Part shown: one piece after another, positions 2,963 through 10,296 of the stretch
Position numbering within the stretch: the first letter of the stretch is position 1
Layout: the number at the start of each line of letters is the position of its first letter
Virus record (IMG/VR): IMGVR_UViG_3300051215_000120
Location: 1 to 23,547 of that record
Length of the DNA stretch: 23,547 nucleotides
Source of the DNA: a virus
Strand: one strand, 5' to 3'
Position numbers and translations under genes: made by a program
Notes under the pieces: model-generated
Told to the model about the DNA's origin: nothing
Databases searched by the model: none
The model's input: only the letters and a program-made list of their open reading frames with translations

Positions 2963-3373
2963 TTAGAAGATAGAAGGCTTAGGTGCTAACCGTGACTCTT
3001 GTTGTTTTTCGTCAACATATAGAGTTCCAGTGTAGTCAGGTGCTTTACTGTTTGCCTCTTGTTTCTCAGAGTTATCAAATAAGAACACTACAACGTCCTG
3101 ACCATGAAAGCGTCCTTTAGCATAGGCTATCATTTTCCCTTTTACTTTCTGTTCTATTTCTAGAGAACCTTGGTTAGACCATTTACCGTCCTCTCCTTTA
3201 CGAGAGAGACGAAGGGTTGACTTACCAGTGTCTTTGTCTCGGAAAACTGAGACGTTGAATGGTACAATAGACTTGTCTGTAAGGTTTAGCTTACCCGTAG
3301 CTATAACGGGAGAACTATCGTCTAAGTCTTGTTTTACCCAAAGACTAACGTAACCTAATTTTTCACCAGTCAT
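2963..3373 (-). CDS. Unknown protein, possible ssDNA-binding protein, 136 aa
   Basis: The start at 3373 has AAGGAGAG nine bases upstream, preceded by an (AC)n tract. The protein is beta-strand-like and basic, with alternating hydrophobic strands (KLGYVSLWV, SIVPFNVSVF, DVVVFLFDN) and PDYTGTLYVDEKQQ near the end, resembling small OB-fold or DUF736-like DNA-binding proteins. It ends ...APKPSIF. It lies between an ERF annealing gene and an exonuclease gene, where phages often place an ssDNA-binding protein. I assign that role tentatively from strand pattern and position; no diagnostic motif is visible. Confidence 0.55.
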   Translation of the reverse strand: MTGEKLGYVSLWVKQDLDDSSPVIATGKLNLTDKSIVPFNVSVFRDKDTGKSTLRLSRKGEDGKWSNQGSLEIEQKVKGKMIAYAKGRFHGQDVVVFLFDNSEKQEANSKAPDYTGTLYVDEKQQESRLAPKPSIF

Positions 3374-3395
3374 AATTCTTTACTCTCCTTGTGTT

Positions 3396-3414
3396 TGTGT
3401 GTGTGTGTGTGTGT
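3396..3414. repeat. Dinucleotide (TG/AC)n tract, 19 nt
   Basis: This is an uninterrupted TG repeat on the plus strand (AC in the leftward mRNA), between the ERF stop and the ribosome site of the next gene. Similar tracts occur at 13591-13604 and 14003-14025, each in the untranslated leader of a leftward gene. Confidence 0.9.
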
Positions 3415-3416
3415 AT

Positions 3417-3905
3417 TTAGAACAATGAAACCTTTTTATGGTCTGTTGTTTTAGTTGTAGCAGGTACAGTTGCAGAGGTGGTCTTACGAGAAGAAGATGT
3501 ACTATGAGATGTACCATCGTCTTCTGGTTCACTCTCTCCAGTATCTAGGGCAAACAGCATAAGTAAACCATATTTGCGACCGCCTGTTTGTGCTTTATAG
3601 GTTGACTTGTCTGAGTTTTTGTCAAGGGCATAACCCAGACTTTCAACAAAGACACATTCAGTAGTCTCAACGTCCGTAAGACAGGTGGTAACTACACATG
3701 AACATTCAGTATAGAAACAGCCCTCTCTCTCTACTATTCTCGTCTCGCCTGACTTGATAGTTTGAGTGAGCGTACAGCCTTCTAAGTAAGGTCTTAGGGC
3801 GTTTAGTATGTCTTCTAGTTGAACATACTTGTAGTTCTGAAAAGAGTTATAACCAGACTTCTTAACAGACTTCACTTGTCTTTGAATTTCTAGTAGCTTA
3901 TTCAT
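3417..3905 (-). CDS. ERF-family single-strand annealing protein, 162 aa
   Basis: The N-terminus carries the ERF/Sak pattern: KSGYNSFQNYKYVQLEDILNALRPYL (residues 17-42), then three beta strands with TQTIKSGE and YTECSCVVTTCLTD, then TYKAQTGGRKYGLLMLFALDTGE (about 105-127). The last block corresponds to the family's G...R(R/K)Y.L..LF.(L/I)D motif. ERF proteins anneal complementary single strands after exonuclease resection. The length is slightly shorter than many ERFs. The C-terminal 35 residues are Ser/Thr rich, low complexity, and end in KKVSLF. The start at 3905 overlaps the upstream stop (ATGA), with AGGAGGG about 11 bases upstream. The partner exonuclease is at 1960-2952. Confidence 0.85.
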   Translation of the reverse strand: MNKLLEIQRQVKSVKKSGYNSFQNYKYVQLEDILNALRPYLEGCTLTQTIKSGETRIVEREGCFYTECSCVVTTCLTDVETTECVFVESLGYALDKNSDKSTYKAQTGGRKYGLLMLFALDTGESEPEDDGTSHSTSSSRKTTSATVPATTKTTDHKKVSLF

Positions 3906-4539: not shown

Positions 4540-6342
4540 TTAGTGAGCCTCTTTCCATGACTTACCTATCTTGCAGTCACCTCTCATTTTAACGTTAGGT
4601 AAAAATGACTGAGAGAATAACTCTTGTAAGTCAGTAGCAAAGTCTGTAACGTACTCGTCAGACACCTCAAATAAGACTTCATCATGTACCATTAGGACAA
4701 GCTTAGGCTTAGATAGGTTAGGGTATTTAGCCCCATAGAACTCACATAGAATGAGTCCTTGAACCATAAGCATTTTCATAATGCTTGCTTCTGTAGCTTG
4801 AATAATGAAGTTGAACATCTGACGTTGGGCATGAGCGGAAACCTTCCTGTCTTCTGAGTTTAACTCAGGGTACACCCCACGTCGTCCATAGAGGTCGTGT
4901 ACCACAATACCCTGCTTCCACACTGCCTGTTTTAATTTGCCTATAGATGGAAATAGGCTTACCATTTTTTGCTGCAGTATCTCAGCCTCTTCTTTAGAAC
5001 ACCCCATCATTTTCCCCATTTTATCGGCACCAGAACCGAACATAACTGAGAAGTTAAGGGTTTTACCTTGTTTTCTAGACACGCCTAATAAGTCAGCAGT
5101 AACCTGGTGCGGGTCGGCTGTCTCATTGGTATTAAAGTCATTAGCTAAGGCATGACCATCCTCGGTGTTCCCGTATAAAGCGTCTAAGTATTGAGCCAAT
5201 ATCCGTATCTGGAAGTTAGAGCAGTCACAACCTACTAAGCTAGAGCCTACTGGGGCTATGAATGAACTGCGAATTAAGTCTCCTGCTTCCCCCGACTTAG
5301 GAATGTTCTGTAAGTTAGGGGAACTTGAACTGTAGCGTCCAGTTAAGGTAATAGTTGGGTTAAAGTTAGCGTGAATGCGACTGTCCTCCTGAACGTGCTT
5401 AAGGAAACTTTGCCCGTAGGTAGTGACTAGCTTGTTTATCTCTGAGTATTCAACCAGAAGTTTAGGTAGTTCCCAGTCTAATGTGTCCAGTATCTCAACC
5501 GTTGTTTGAGGTTTACCTGTTTCAGTGAACTCTTTTGGTTCCCAATTATAAAGGAACTTTAAAGCCCAAGTTATCTGGTCACTTGAGTTCGGGTTAAACT
5601 CAACGAACTTTTTGTATAGGTAGCAGTCACTACCATCAGCCGAGTCTTTACCTAAGAAAATGTACTCACCTAACTCAGGCTGTTTCTTACCATCCCAGAC
5701 ACACCAGCATCCTCGTTCACCATTAACCCTCGATGGTGTCTTAGGTGCAACGGGACAAACCTCTAGAATTTTTTCCAGTAACTGTTGAGACCGTATCTCT
5801 AGGTTTTTGTTTTGGTTTTCCCACTGCTCCCTGTCTATTAAAACCCCATTAGTCTCTAAGGCTATGGTAGCCTCTACTGCAGGTAGGTCAATGTTCTTGT
5901 AACATTCATAGGCTTTGTTGTCTGTTTTGAACTTATTCAACAGATACTGGTAGGTTTTGAAGCATATCTCTGAGTCCACTACACAGTAAGGAATTAACTC
6001 CTCTAAGGTAGCTGTCTCGAAGTTGCAGCATTCAAGTTTAGGTAAGCCTATTCTATCTCCCCAGCTTCTCAAGTCATGTGTCCCTGCCGGGAACCAGACA
6101 TAGGACATTATCATTGTGTCCTCATAATGCTTAACCATGAACCCATGCTTTCTTAGAACACGAACGTCAAAAGAAGCATTATGAAAGATAGGAGTTGTGC
6201 TGTCTAGCTTTTCCTGTAACCCGTCAAAGGGGGGTAAGAAATAACCAGACGAGCCGTCTTCATGGTAGAAAGAAATGACTCTGAGAACGTCACCAGATAA
6301 GTCGGTAGTCTCAGAGTCATAGGCGCAAATAGGTTTAGTCAT
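4540..6342 (-). CDS. Family A DNA polymerase with 3'-5' proofreading exonuclease, 600 aa
   Basis: The exonuclease domain (about 1-150) has D9-x-E11 (YDSETTD), N55...D59 (HNASFD) and Y119xxxD123. The polymerase domain has TGRYSSSSPNLQNIP (334-348), motif A GCDCSNFQIR (D373), the O helix R423, K427, F431, F435, and motif C MVHDEV (H553, D554, E555). No 5'-nuclease domain is present, as in T7 gp5. It replicates the phage genome with the helicase-primase encoded upstream. Two substitutions stand out. The residue five after the motif A Asp, normally the steric-gate Glu (E. coli Pol I E710), is Gln378. The O-helix Tyr (E. coli Y766) is Phe435. The start at 6342 has TAGGAGAG nine bases upstream, which overlaps the stop of the 36-aa gene. 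Confidence 0.95.
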   Translation of the reverse strand: MTKPICAYDSETTDLSGDVLRVISFYHEDGSSGYFLPPFDGLQEKLDSTTPIFHNASFDVRVLRKHGFMVKHYEDTMIMSYVWFPAGTHDLRSWGDRIGLPKLECCNFETATLEELIPYCVVDSEICFKTYQYLLNKFKTDNKAYECYKNIDLPAVEATIALETNGVLIDREQWENQNKNLEIRSQQLLEKILEVCPVAPKTPSRVNGERGCWCVWDGKKQPELGEYIFLGKDSADGSDCYLYKKFVEFNPNSSDQITWALKFLYNWEPKEFTETGKPQTTVEILDTLDWELPKLLVEYSEINKLVTTYGQSFLKHVQEDSRIHANFNPTITLTGRYSSSSPNLQNIPKSGEAGDLIRSSFIAPVGSSLVGCDCSNFQIRILAQYLDALYGNTEDGHALANDFNTNETADPHQVTADLLGVSRKQGKTLNFSVMFGSGADKMGKMMGCSKEEAEILQQKMVSLFPSIGKLKQAVWKQGIVVHDLYGRRGVYPELNSEDRKVSAHAQRQMFNFIIQATEASIMKMLMVQGLILCEFYGAKYPNLSKPKLVLMVHDEVLFEVSDEYVTDFATDLQELFSQSFLPNVKMRGDCKIGKSWKEAH

Positions 6343-6640: not shown

Positions 6641-7105
6641 TTAGCTATCTCCTGCTGTATAGCCTAATACTACCCCACCATCACACTTCTTACATTTATG
6701 CGTTAACGGGAGTTCACCGTCTGCTATTTTGAACCAGCAGTCAGGTACTTCATCACCGTCAGTCATCCAAATATAACCGTGCTTTGTCAACCATTCCCCA
6801 ATAGTTAGCCCCGTTGAAGGGTTTACAATATGTTTTGGTGACGCTAGACATACCCTCAAAAGTGGACGTTCTGAAATGTCTAAATGACTCATCTTCTCGA
6901 CCCACTCCCGACGAGGATAACCCTTGTATTCGATGTATATCGGGTGTTTCTTCCCCGTTATTACAAAGTCTGGTGTCATGGTTTTCACCAATGTCACAGA
7001 AAATACCTTCTGACGTTGTTTCAGGCGAATTAACATCGGGTTCTGTTGATGGAAATAGGCTTCCGCTTTGCTGTCGTATTTGCTCGCTGTCTGTATTGTT
7101 GTCAT
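6641..7105 (-). CDS. T7 endonuclease I-like Holliday junction resolvase, 154 aa
   Basis: The PD-(D/E)XK core is ordered as in T7 gp3: E15 in SKAEAYF, TPDF with D46, then IEYKGY with E59 and K61. The later WLTKHGY and DCWFK segments match the T7 order of a KHG motif followed by a Trp-Ile/Phe-Lys segment. The C-terminus carries a CxxC (HKCKKCDGG) not found in T7. The enzyme class cleaves branched DNA and debranches replication intermediates. The start at 7105 has TAGGAGA six bases upstream. The 5' 347 bases of the gene overlap, in another frame, the end of the primase-helicase reading frame. Because the resolvase family pattern spans the overlapped region, this is probably the older frame. Confidence 0.82.
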   Translation of the reverse strand: MTTIQTASKYDSKAEAYFHQQNPMLIRLKQRQKVFSVTLVKTMTPDFVITGKKHPIYIEYKGYPRREWVEKMSHLDISERPLLRVCLASPKHIVNPSTGLTIGEWLTKHGYIWMTDGDEVPDCWFKIADGELPLTHKCKKCDGGVVLGYTAGDS

Positions 7106-8708
7106 TACTTTCTCCTATTGAACTGAAACACCCTGTTTTAGGTATATAAGTTAGTGAACACTCACCCAATTTACCCGTTGCCCGTTGCTTAACTATTCTG
7201 ATAGAGATAGTCTGGTCGTTGTTTTGCACATCTCTAGCTAGGCTAATGACATTGTGTGAGAACCGTTCAATACTACCTGAACCAAAACCGTCAAACATAC
7301 TGGGAGCCGACTTACGGTCTTTACTCTCACGTCTTTTTGTGTGAGACACGACTAAGGTATGGTGTCCGAACTCTTTACTTAACTGTAGTAACGTAGCTAG
7401 TGTCTGAGATAAGCGTGTAGCTACCTGCGCATCGTCGGCGCAGGCAGCAGTAATATTGTCCAGTACGACTAACTCAGTACCATCAGCCCTCACTGAGTAT
7501 TCAATGAGTGTCTTTAGTTCATCTACTGAGACGCTACCGTTTACTGTACTCACTCGTGCATACTTAGACACCCTCTCAGCTAAGTCTTTAGCCTGCTCCT
7601 CACTTACTTTACTCTCACCGAGACACCCTATGATGGGGCGACCGAGGAGCATTCCCGCTACTTTGGTCAACCATTCACGAGGGGTTTCCTCTAGAGCCAA
7701 GATAAGGACTTGTTTTTTCTGTTGAATAAGGTTCCTCACTACCCAACGGATAACCGAGGACTTCCCAACAGACGGGTCAGCAAACACTGTTGTTACTTCA
7801 CTTCTTCTCATAGTAAAGAGTTCATCTAGGGCAGGTATGCCTGTTAAGCCTATCCCTTCATAGACGCTAGACTTCCCGCTCATCTCATCTAGTAACCATT
7901 GGCTTACTTGTGCTTGGCTTACTATTCCATCGTACTCAGCTTGTTTTGCTTTTTCAAAGTCTGACTTAAACAGTCTTGAAGCCTCACTACTATCTGTGTG
8001 GTTAACCAGGTACTCGTTAGCGTCCTTGTACTGTAAGGTTACACGGTAAGCTTGACCCTTGCGTATAAGGTTCATAACCTCATCACAAGCGTCCTGACCT
8101 GCGCTATCATTATCAAAACACAGGTAAACTGACCTGAAGGACTCTACAAATTGAAGGTGTTTCTTTACAAAAGTACCTGCATTACCTGCCCCATTAGGTA
8201 CAGACAATACCGTGTACTCCGAGCCTAGCATTTGTTTGCAGGCAAGTGCATCGAACTCACCTTCAACTAGAACTAACTTATAACGCTTTGACGTGACGGT
8301 ATTAAACCCAAAGAACTGAATAGACTTCGAGTCACCTTCCCAATAAAACTGTTTCTCTACTGCCGAACGTATTTTTCTTGCTACCTGTACTCCCTGCTCA
8401 TTGTAATAGGGAAACACATATTCACCACGGGAAGCGTCCACTAAGACGTTATACTCTTTACAAATAGTCTTAGTTAGGTTTCTTTTTGTGAGTGCAAGAC
8501 ATTCTAGTTCTCTTGGTTCAAAGACAGTTGACTTTTGGGTTAAGCCTTTCACGGCTTCATCGTCACTTAGACTATTACTACAGTTAGGCGTGAAGCAAAA
8601 ATGAGAAGTAACACCGTAGTCAGTTAGTCTGTACTTTACTAGGTTGTCCTTAGAACCACATACCGGACACGGGAATTTACCCAGTATTTCTTTATTGTAC
8701 TCATTCAT
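6759..8708 (-). CDS. T7 gp4-like bifunctional DNA primase-helicase, 649 aa, with an overprinted C-terminal tail
   Basis: Domains in order: N-terminal zinc ribbon (C14, C17, C38, C43), TOPRIM primase fold (E149 in LVLVEGE; FDND at 198-201), then a RecA-like DnaB/gp4 helicase with Walker A DPSVGKSS (311-318), Walker B LVVLD (D417), SHT (455-457) and KQRATGKLG (507-515). It unwinds the fork and primes the lagging strand. The first Gly of the Walker A motif is Ala (A310). The conserved core ends near residue 530 (TGCFSS), where T7 gp4 has only a short acidic tail. Here the frame stays open for about 119 polar, low-complexity residues lying inside the resolvase gene. ATG 8708 follows GAGAGGTAATAA. 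A shorter functional product cannot be excluded. Confidence 0.92.
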   Translation of the reverse strand: MNEYNKEILGKFPCPVCGSKDNLVKYRLTDYGVTSHFCFTPNCSNSLSDDEAVKGLTQKSTVFEPRELECLALTKRNLTKTICKEYNVLVDASRGEYVFPYYNEQGVQVARKIRSAVEKQFYWEGDSKSIQFFGFNTVTSKRYKLVLVEGEFDALACKQMLGSEYTVLSVPNGAGNAGTFVKKHLQFVESFRSVYLCFDNDSAGQDACDEVMNLIRKGQAYRVTLQYKDANEYLVNHTDSSEASRLFKSDFEKAKQAEYDGIVSQAQVSQWLLDEMSGKSSVYEGIGLTGIPALDELFTMRRSEVTTVFADPSVGKSSVIRWVVRNLIQQKKQVLILALEETPREWLTKVAGMLLGRPIIGCLGESKVSEEQAKDLAERVSKYARVSTVNGSVSVDELKTLIEYSVRADGTELVVLDNITAACADDAQVATRLSQTLATLLQLSKEFGHHTLVVSHTKRRESKDRKSAPSMFDGFGSGSIERFSHNVISLARDVQNNDQTISIRIVKQRATGKLGECSLTYIPKTGCFSSIGESNDNNTDSEQIRQQSGSLFPSTEPDVNSPETTSEGIFCDIGENHDTRLCNNGEETPDIHRIQGLSSSGVGREDESFRHFRTSTFEGMSSVTKTYCKPFNGANYWGMVDKARLYLDD

Positions 8709-8805: not shown

Positions 8806-9459
8806 TTACATCATTTTAGCTAAGTAGTCAGCTAATTCATCAGGGTTAAAGTGTATCCCAACGTTTACTAGACAGTGTGACGTAAAGCTACAACAAGTCG
8901 GGGAACTAATAGGGAAGAACCCTTTTTTGTCGGTGTTCCATAATATGGGTAAAACACTTGTCCAGTGGAACTTGTGGGTACTACCCACATAGTCTCTTAC
9001 TCTAGTTAATACTCGGTAGTCTTTTAAGACACCTACTACAACGTAGGCTACAGGTCTTCGAGGTTCTTTCTCGAAGTATATCTGTGTTCCACTTGTATTA
9101 TAGTCAACTTGTAAGGTGTCTCCTACCTTAAAGCAAACATGAGTAGTGAATGTATTAGAACGCCCTAACATGAATGCTGTCAGTGCAACTAACCACGCTG
9201 ACCAGTCTTCCGGGTAACAGAAATAAATAGTAACAGGGGTCAAGGCTAGACAATTAAAGTCACTATTCTCATTAAGACCACGCTCTCTCATTGTCTGTGT
9301 CAATGTTCTCGAGAAAATTTTCGGGTAAGTCTGCTGAGAGGACTGCAGTGGTAATTGACTTGCTTTGAGTATATTGATAATACCTCGATGCAAGTAATGA
9401 TAACCTTTGGTAAGTTGGGAACTTACCCGTTGTTTTATAGTTGATATAAGCATACTCAT
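8806..9459 (-). CDS. Unknown protein, possible permuted papain-like (NlpC/P60-type) cysteine hydrolase, 217 aa
   Basis: The start at 9459 is chosen because AAGGAGG lies seven bases upstream, the best ribosome site in the operon. Residues 70-217 look like a compact alpha/beta domain: a helix WSAWLVALTAFM, then THVCF (H107), beta strands (TLQVDY, QIYF, AYVVVGVL), then PTCCSFTSHCLVNVGI (C189/C190) and NPDELADYLAKM. The order His then Cys, with a terminal 'P-x-x-L' helix, recalls permuted papain-like hydrolases in phages; this is tentative. Residues 1-62 overlap the end of the upstream gene in another frame and are Ser/Gln/Thr rich, so they may be an overprinted extension. Confidence 0.6.
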   Translation of the reverse strand: MSMLISTIKQRVSSQLTKGYHYLHRGIINILKASQLPLQSSQQTYPKIFSRTLTQTMRERGLNENSDFNCLALTPVTIYFCYPEDWSAWLVALTAFMLGRSNTFTTHVCFKVGDTLQVDYNTSGTQIYFEKEPRRPVAYVVVGVLKDYRVLTRVRDYVGSTHKFHWTSVLPILWNTDKKGFFPISSPTCCSFTSHCLVNVGIHFNPDELADYLAKMM

Positions 9460-9951: not shown

Positions 9952-10296
9952 CTATAACCCGTAGTTAGGTTTGTCTAAGTATTTCAGGTTGAGAGGTGCT
10001 GAGTGTACCCGTTGGGATAGACCTCCTGCTCGTTTAGGAGGAAGTGTTTTCATACTACCGTCCTCAACCATCTTCTGGAAAACAGCGTCCATAACAGAGT
10101 CTAAGATACCACGCTGTTCAACGGTTAACCCGTCCTGATAAACTACCTTTGGTAAGTGGAACAACTCATCAATGTCTTCTTTAGAACAAGGGTTCTTCGT
10201 CACCAGTTGTTCCATCATCTGCTGGTTCGCCTGTCTGTTCGCTATTCTGCTCATCACTCTGCTGTTGTTCGGGTTGTTGTTGTTGTTGCTGTTCAT
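9952..10296 (-). CDS. Unknown protein with an Asn-rich N-terminus, 114 aa
   Basis: ATG at 10296 has TAGGA seven bases upstream. The first 12 residues are nearly all Asn/Ser (MNSNNNNNPNNS), encoded by a CAA-type repeat that is poly-Gln in the overlapping ParB-like frame. The conserved-looking part is probably residues 25-114, with helices (CSKEDIDELFHL, GLTVEQRGILDSVMDAVFQKMVEDG) and a basic end (PPKRAGGLSQRV). A later start at the second Met (residue 15) is possible but has no better ribosome site. No family is recognised. Its first 116 bases overlap the preceding gene. Confidence 0.68.
   Translation of the reverse strand: MNSNNNNNPNNSRVMSRIANRQANQQMMEQLVTKNPCSKEDIDELFHLPKVVYQDGLTVEQRGILDSVMDAVFQKMVEDGSMKTLPPKRAGGLSQRVHSAPLNLKYLDKPNYGL

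Follow-up and report, generated by a model that had tools for sequence, protein, structure and literature searches.

On the minus strand of the window, by which we mean the whole stretch of 23,547 nucleotides analysed here (IMG/VR record IMGVR_UViG_3300051215_000120), the gene for a primase-helicase runs on past its conserved core and into the gene for an endonuclease that is read in another frame. This 347-bp overlap, which had been pointed out in an earlier note on this DNA, is confirmed by the two open reading frames (ORFs) and takes up 75% of the endonuclease gene (Table 1). The boundary of the helicase core also lies where the note had placed it, at the start of the resolvase. The DnaB_C match extends to residue 529, and the ATG of the endonuclease, preceded by a Shine-Dalgarno sequence, is in helicase codon 535.

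Table 1. Features of the helicase-endonuclease locus; positions are those of the window unless another genome is named.
Feature	Position	Strand	Remarks
Primase-helicase, T7-gp4-like, with long C-terminal tail	6759..8708	(-)	649-residue ORF
Helicase core, residues 1-529	7122..8708	(-)	DnaB_C match; AlphaFold2 confidence <50 at residues 532-649
Helicase tail, acidic, predicted disordered, residues 530-649	6762..7121	(-)	Charge, stop avoidance, suppressed endonuclease-synonymous change
Last 30 residues of the tail	6762..6851	(-)	Most constrained at endonuclease-synonymous sites
T7-type endonuclease I (Holliday-junction resolvase)	6641..7105	(-)	154 residues; phrog_945, profile, model
Out-of-frame overlap, 347 bp	6759..7105	(-)	Endonuclease in phase +1 relative to helicase
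Shine-Dalgarno AGGAG	7112..7116	(-)	6 nt upstream of endonuclease ATG
Endonuclease catalytic residues E15, D46, E59, K61	6923..7063	(-)	Invariant in alignments; all inside the overlap
Family A DNA polymerase, candidate tail partner	4540..6342	(-)	DNA_pol_A; downstream of endonuclease
Unannotated nested endonuclease I ORFs, public Wumptrevirus genomes	L135, L136/L137/L138, L139 3412-4032; L054 4520-5140		
Unannotated nested endonuclease I ORF, TR020	L140 4421-5032		

The helicase matches phrog_239 (E 1e-102) and has the Toprim domain, the T7 helicase-primase N-terminal fold (Helic-prim_T7_N) and the DnaB-like C-terminal domain (DnaB_C) of a T7 gp4-like protein. It also shares with gp4 an acidic C-terminal tail, the overlapping part of which carries a net charge of -9, beyond the null expectation described below. 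The C-terminal phenylalanine of T7 gp4, which ends in DTDF, is absent from the window helicase, which ends in LYLDD, so the tail may act like that of gp4 without its motif. AlphaFold2 gives the tail a pLDDT of about 27-40, which shows nothing past likely disorder.

By profile, catalytic pattern and modelled fold, the product of the second gene is a member of the T7 endonuclease I family. It matches phrog_945 (E 6.7e-9), while PF05367 is matched by its homologues in phages A-4L and CHP58 and not by the window protein itself. The family profile matches T7 endonuclease I structures at 5.6e-22, and the best PDB matches of the structural model are again T7 endonuclease I (1m0d/2pfj), with a Foldseek E of 2e-5 and a probability of 1.0 against 1m0d, at a TM-score of only 0.44-0.56. 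The catalytic E, D and E-x-K residues, which the earlier note had located inside the overlap, do lie there and are invariant across the aligned relatives.

The window is a genome fragment; the best phage matches of its portal protein and polymerase (30-37%) are Saffermanviridae cyanophages or CHP58. Its minus strand holds two further long same-strand ORF overlaps, at 9272-9459 (188 bp) and 10181-10296 (116 bp), between unassigned early genes, and similar overlaps occur at 3270-3451 and 2402-2532 in the related IMG/VR contig L003. Near the replication genes, also on the minus strand, a Cas4-domain-like exonuclease (1960-2952) and an ERF-type annealing protein (3417-3905) are likely to form a phage recombination pair.

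The earlier note had described the overlap from this phage alone. It is present as described, but it is a clade-wide trait, and in some members the endonuclease is fully nested. The same gene pair in the same +1 phase was found in five divergent lineages, namely the window with L003, Anabaena phage A-4L, CHP58, Wumptrevirus and Arthronema phage TR020. L003 is the closest relative (helicase 79% identical, endonuclease about 90%), and its overlap of 344 bp ends the tail at a position equivalent to that in the window. Scans of viral contigs for more close relatives returned only L003 and its copy, and a scan of genome contigs returned none. In CHP58, a Mastigocladus phage, the overlap is 431 bp. 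In the Wumptrevirus phages Pf-WMP3, LPP-2, PP, PP-DH22, Lsp-JY17 and Lbo-JY12, a 206-residue ORF with the endonuclease motifs lies wholly within the helicase gene; it lacks annotation in every annotated record, the PP-DH22 record having no annotation at all. TR020 likewise has a nested, unannotated endonuclease, of 203 residues and with a weaker match (phrog_945 E 1e-4). The hidden endonuclease is unannotated in most genomes checked. A different TR020 gene (L140 269-766) is annotated as endodeoxyribonuclease I; its product matches none of the endonuclease I families and looks like a different PD-(D/E)XK protein.

Among 72 fetched loci with both genes, the helicase runs into the endonuclease only in this cyanophage group; one other locus, L116, has the reverse gene order and a short frame overlap. 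The endonuclease gene of T7 and other Autographiviridae is located upstream of the helicase gene. The stops or frameshifts in close relatives that the earlier note had named as its refutation do not occur, as the tail frame is open in L003, A-4L, CHP58, the six Wumptrevirus phages and TR020. A sequencing or assembly error can be ruled out, since independent isolates show the same overlap.

The earlier note had cautioned that the low stop density might be due to chance, and this concern can be set aside. When the synonymous codons of the endonuclease were shuffled with codon usage preserved, the helicase frame stayed open in 0.045% of shuffles for the window, 0.2% for CHP58, 0.4% for TR020, 0.7% for WMP3 and 6.5% for A-4L, and with the codon usage of the helicase core of the same genome in no more than 0.005% in all five lineages. 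The corresponding frame is interrupted in all 66 non-overlapping endonuclease I genes used as controls. At junctions where a stop could arise, wobble T is absent from the overlaps (0 of 218) vs 265 of 664 in the helicase cores of the same genomes, and wobble G before A-codons reaches 55% vs 19%. Evolution under endonuclease constraint alone would be expected to produce about 3 stops in Wumptrevirus and 4-5 in the window and L003, and none is seen. The antisense frame at 6814-7149 (+), which the note had reported as open as well, is not conserved, with at least 2 stops per antisense frame in L003 and other relatives, and antisense coding is ruled out.

Substitution tests near the window depend on its sole close pair, that with L003, in which the tail is 63% identical. 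At positions where the residue is unchanged, the codon differs in 30 of 93 cases in the overlap. The helicase core gives 210 of 421 (p 0.0014), and the part of the endonuclease beyond the overlap gives 17 of 34 (p 0.053). Over the last 30 tail residues, a stretch picked post hoc, only 4 of 25 conserved-residue codons differ, to be set against the core value just given (p = 0.0007). Simulations of this one genome pair, calibrated on the non-overlapping endonuclease end and using a simple mutation scheme with weighted transitions, rejected constraint from the endonuclease alone and likewise the mere avoidance of stops (p about 0.02 or lower); the best fit was a helicase-tail omega of about 0.5.

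Conservation of the tail as a protein is weak between the window and L003 (omega about 0.5), and within Wumptrevirus the tail is close to neutral. In that genus the synonymous deficit is not significant (25 of 170 vs 78 of 440, p 0.22), and there are no fewer changes at helicase-nonsynonymous sites (dNN/dNS 1.3), and strong amino-acid conservation of the tail was not found there. Selection seems to act on openness and acidity more than on exact sequence. Judged from these comparisons, the tail is weakly conserved in sequence and strongly kept open and acidic. Selection appears detectable in both frames, in the endonuclease through changes that fall mainly on wobble bases (33 of 52) and in the helicase through stop avoidance, acidity and the synonymous deficit.

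The acidity goes beyond what an open frame imposes. Under a null in which stops are forbidden while the endonuclease protein and its codon counts are kept, the overlapping tail of the window would be expected to contain 14.3 D/E and 15.5 K/R residues; it contains 19 and 10. Taking the five lineages as independent, the tail is more acidic than this null in each, with lower net charge (z of -3.3, -3.1, -2.9, -2.4 and -3.2; range -2.35 to -3.32). Forty control segments from the same genomes gave a mean z of -0.63, none with an equal acid excess, and only one of 18 control endonucleases (S-CBP3) reached that of the tail. The tail ends differ between lineages, LYLDD in the window and a basic RRRTT in Wumptrevirus, so that no single shared binding motif is seen.

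The endonuclease seems to have its own start within the helicase gene. A Shine-Dalgarno-like motif precedes it in four of the five lineages; that of CHP58 belongs to an ATG further along than the first GTG of the ORF, and none was found before the A-4L endonuclease. Upstream of its start the endonuclease frame is open for just 0-16 codons, and in Pf-WMP3 and LPP-2 a TAG in that frame directly precedes the ATG, so that a frameshift further upstream could not yield a fusion. From these signals we favour internal initiation.

Dual coding of the region is well supported by the sequence comparisons. We favour a process in which ribosomes completing the helicase frame would produce a helicase with an acidic, disordered C-terminal tail of 115-210 residues, while others would initiate within the gene at the Shine-Dalgarno sequence and ATG and produce endonuclease I. 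The tail, like that of T7 gp4, would then act as a tether that keeps a basic partner at the fork, be it the DNA polymerase or some other protein that handles DNA. We give this combination of dual coding, internal endonuclease start and polymerase-tether-like tail, in which we infer the tether function, a probability of roughly 0.6. By analogy the window tail is probably a T7-gp4-like tether, its function and partner being read from gp4. It is conceivable, and we put it forward tentatively, that the tail is selected for charge and openness over sequence, sets the wobble bases of the resolvase and links resolvase supply to fork assembly.

The main rival holds that the open frame serves translation control, such that ribosomes in the helicase frame limit or couple resolvase synthesis and the peptide is mere filler. 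Excess resolvase would harm forks, the internal Shine-Dalgarno sites are strong, openness is far better conserved than sequence, and the changes in the Wumptrevirus tail are nearly neutral. However, the acidic bias beyond the no-stop null in five lineages indicates that the residues matter, and the suppression of synonymous change between the window and L003 exceeds what stop avoidance would give. We consider it unlikely that translation control is the whole explanation, although it is compatible with a tail function and the two can coexist.

Synonymous change might also be suppressed by an RNA or DNA signal within the overlap and not by a tail protein, and the concentration of the window/L003 constraint in the last 30 codons would fit it. 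As this leaves both the stop avoidance over 114-206 codons and the acidic bias of five lineages unexplained, we regard it as improbable. Less probable still is a neutral run-on, in which the helicase stop was lost and an unselected tail reads through the resolvase by chance. Sister phages lack the tail, its sequence is divergent, and tails in phase +1 are hydrophilic by construction, but this idea is already contradicted by the repeated rejection of chance openness and by the complete lack of the expected stops (about 3 in Wumptrevirus, 4-5 in the window and L003). Programmed +1 frameshifting, which would join the endonuclease to the helicase core and make the frame-0 tail a by-product, would be allowed by the +1 phase that all five lineages share but is made very improbable by the Wumptrevirus TAG that abuts the ATG, and it is further opposed by the short open stretch upstream, by the Shine-Dalgarno sites at the ATG, by the alternative explanation of phase +1 through removable stops, and by phages with separate genes, which manage without a fusion.

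Returning to the favoured dual-coding scheme, its phase has a simple explanation. In phase +1, the first base of every helicase-frame stop is a T in the wobble position of an endonuclease codon. Since replacing NNT by NNC never alters the residue, an open frame is easily reached; the other sense frame has 12-23 shuffle-expected stops. The helicase of the sister phages Pf-WMP4, Lbo240-yong1 and Dor1 ends at the core without a long tail, which identifies the tail as the probable newcomer and bears out the suggestion of the earlier note to that effect. In a gene order helicase-endonuclease-polymerase, the tail would have been overprinted on the endonuclease, most likely through loss of the helicase stop; we infer this order of events from the comparison, in which the tail is probably a newcomer on an older endonuclease. 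Trees had long branches and weak support and did not separate single from multiple origins.

Overlapping genes are common in viruses. What is unusual here, in a family of freshwater cyanobacterial viruses, is that two core enzymes of replication and recombination overlap at length on the same strand and have kept a single phase in lineages that differ at the level of genus. The case shows how the gene of a folded enzyme can take on a disordered acidic tail as a second reading through wobble bases only, makes charge-only selection in replisome tails testable, and gives Wumptrevirus and TR020 an endonuclease I that had gone unannotated. The published eight-gene core of six such phages omits the endonuclease (PMC10140849), although by the present evidence all six have one. 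No description of the helicase-endonuclease overlap was found in open-access papers.

Among known systems, A-4L (Kozyakovvirus, Saffermanviridae) resembles the window in that its annotated genes A4L_16 and A4L_17 share 401 bp in phase +1, but helicase identity is only about 25%, and the deposited record gives the two genes with no remark. Wumptrevirus (Pf-WMP3, PP, LPP-2, Lsp-JY17, Lbo-JY12) and TR020 share the long helicase tail and a +1 endonuclease with E, D and ExK, differing from the window in an endonuclease of 203-206 residues that is fully nested and unannotated. Pf-WMP4, Lbo240-yong1 and Dor1 (Wumpquatrovirus, Morrisvirus) have the same order of helicase, endonuclease and polymerase, but the helicase, of about 460-485 residues, is tailless and the endonuclease is a separate gene. 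In T7, the acidic tail of gp4 binds basic patches of the gp5 polymerase and raises replisome processivity (PMC5997990, PMC12593628). T7 also has an overlap resembling that of the window, as gene 4.2 (L161 3089-3427), in phase +1, shares 278 bp with the 3' terminus of gene 4; unlike in the window, the overlapping gene 4.2 is not the endonuclease gene (phrog_5140/DUF5480), and the T7 endonuclease is encoded by gene 3, upstream of gene 4.
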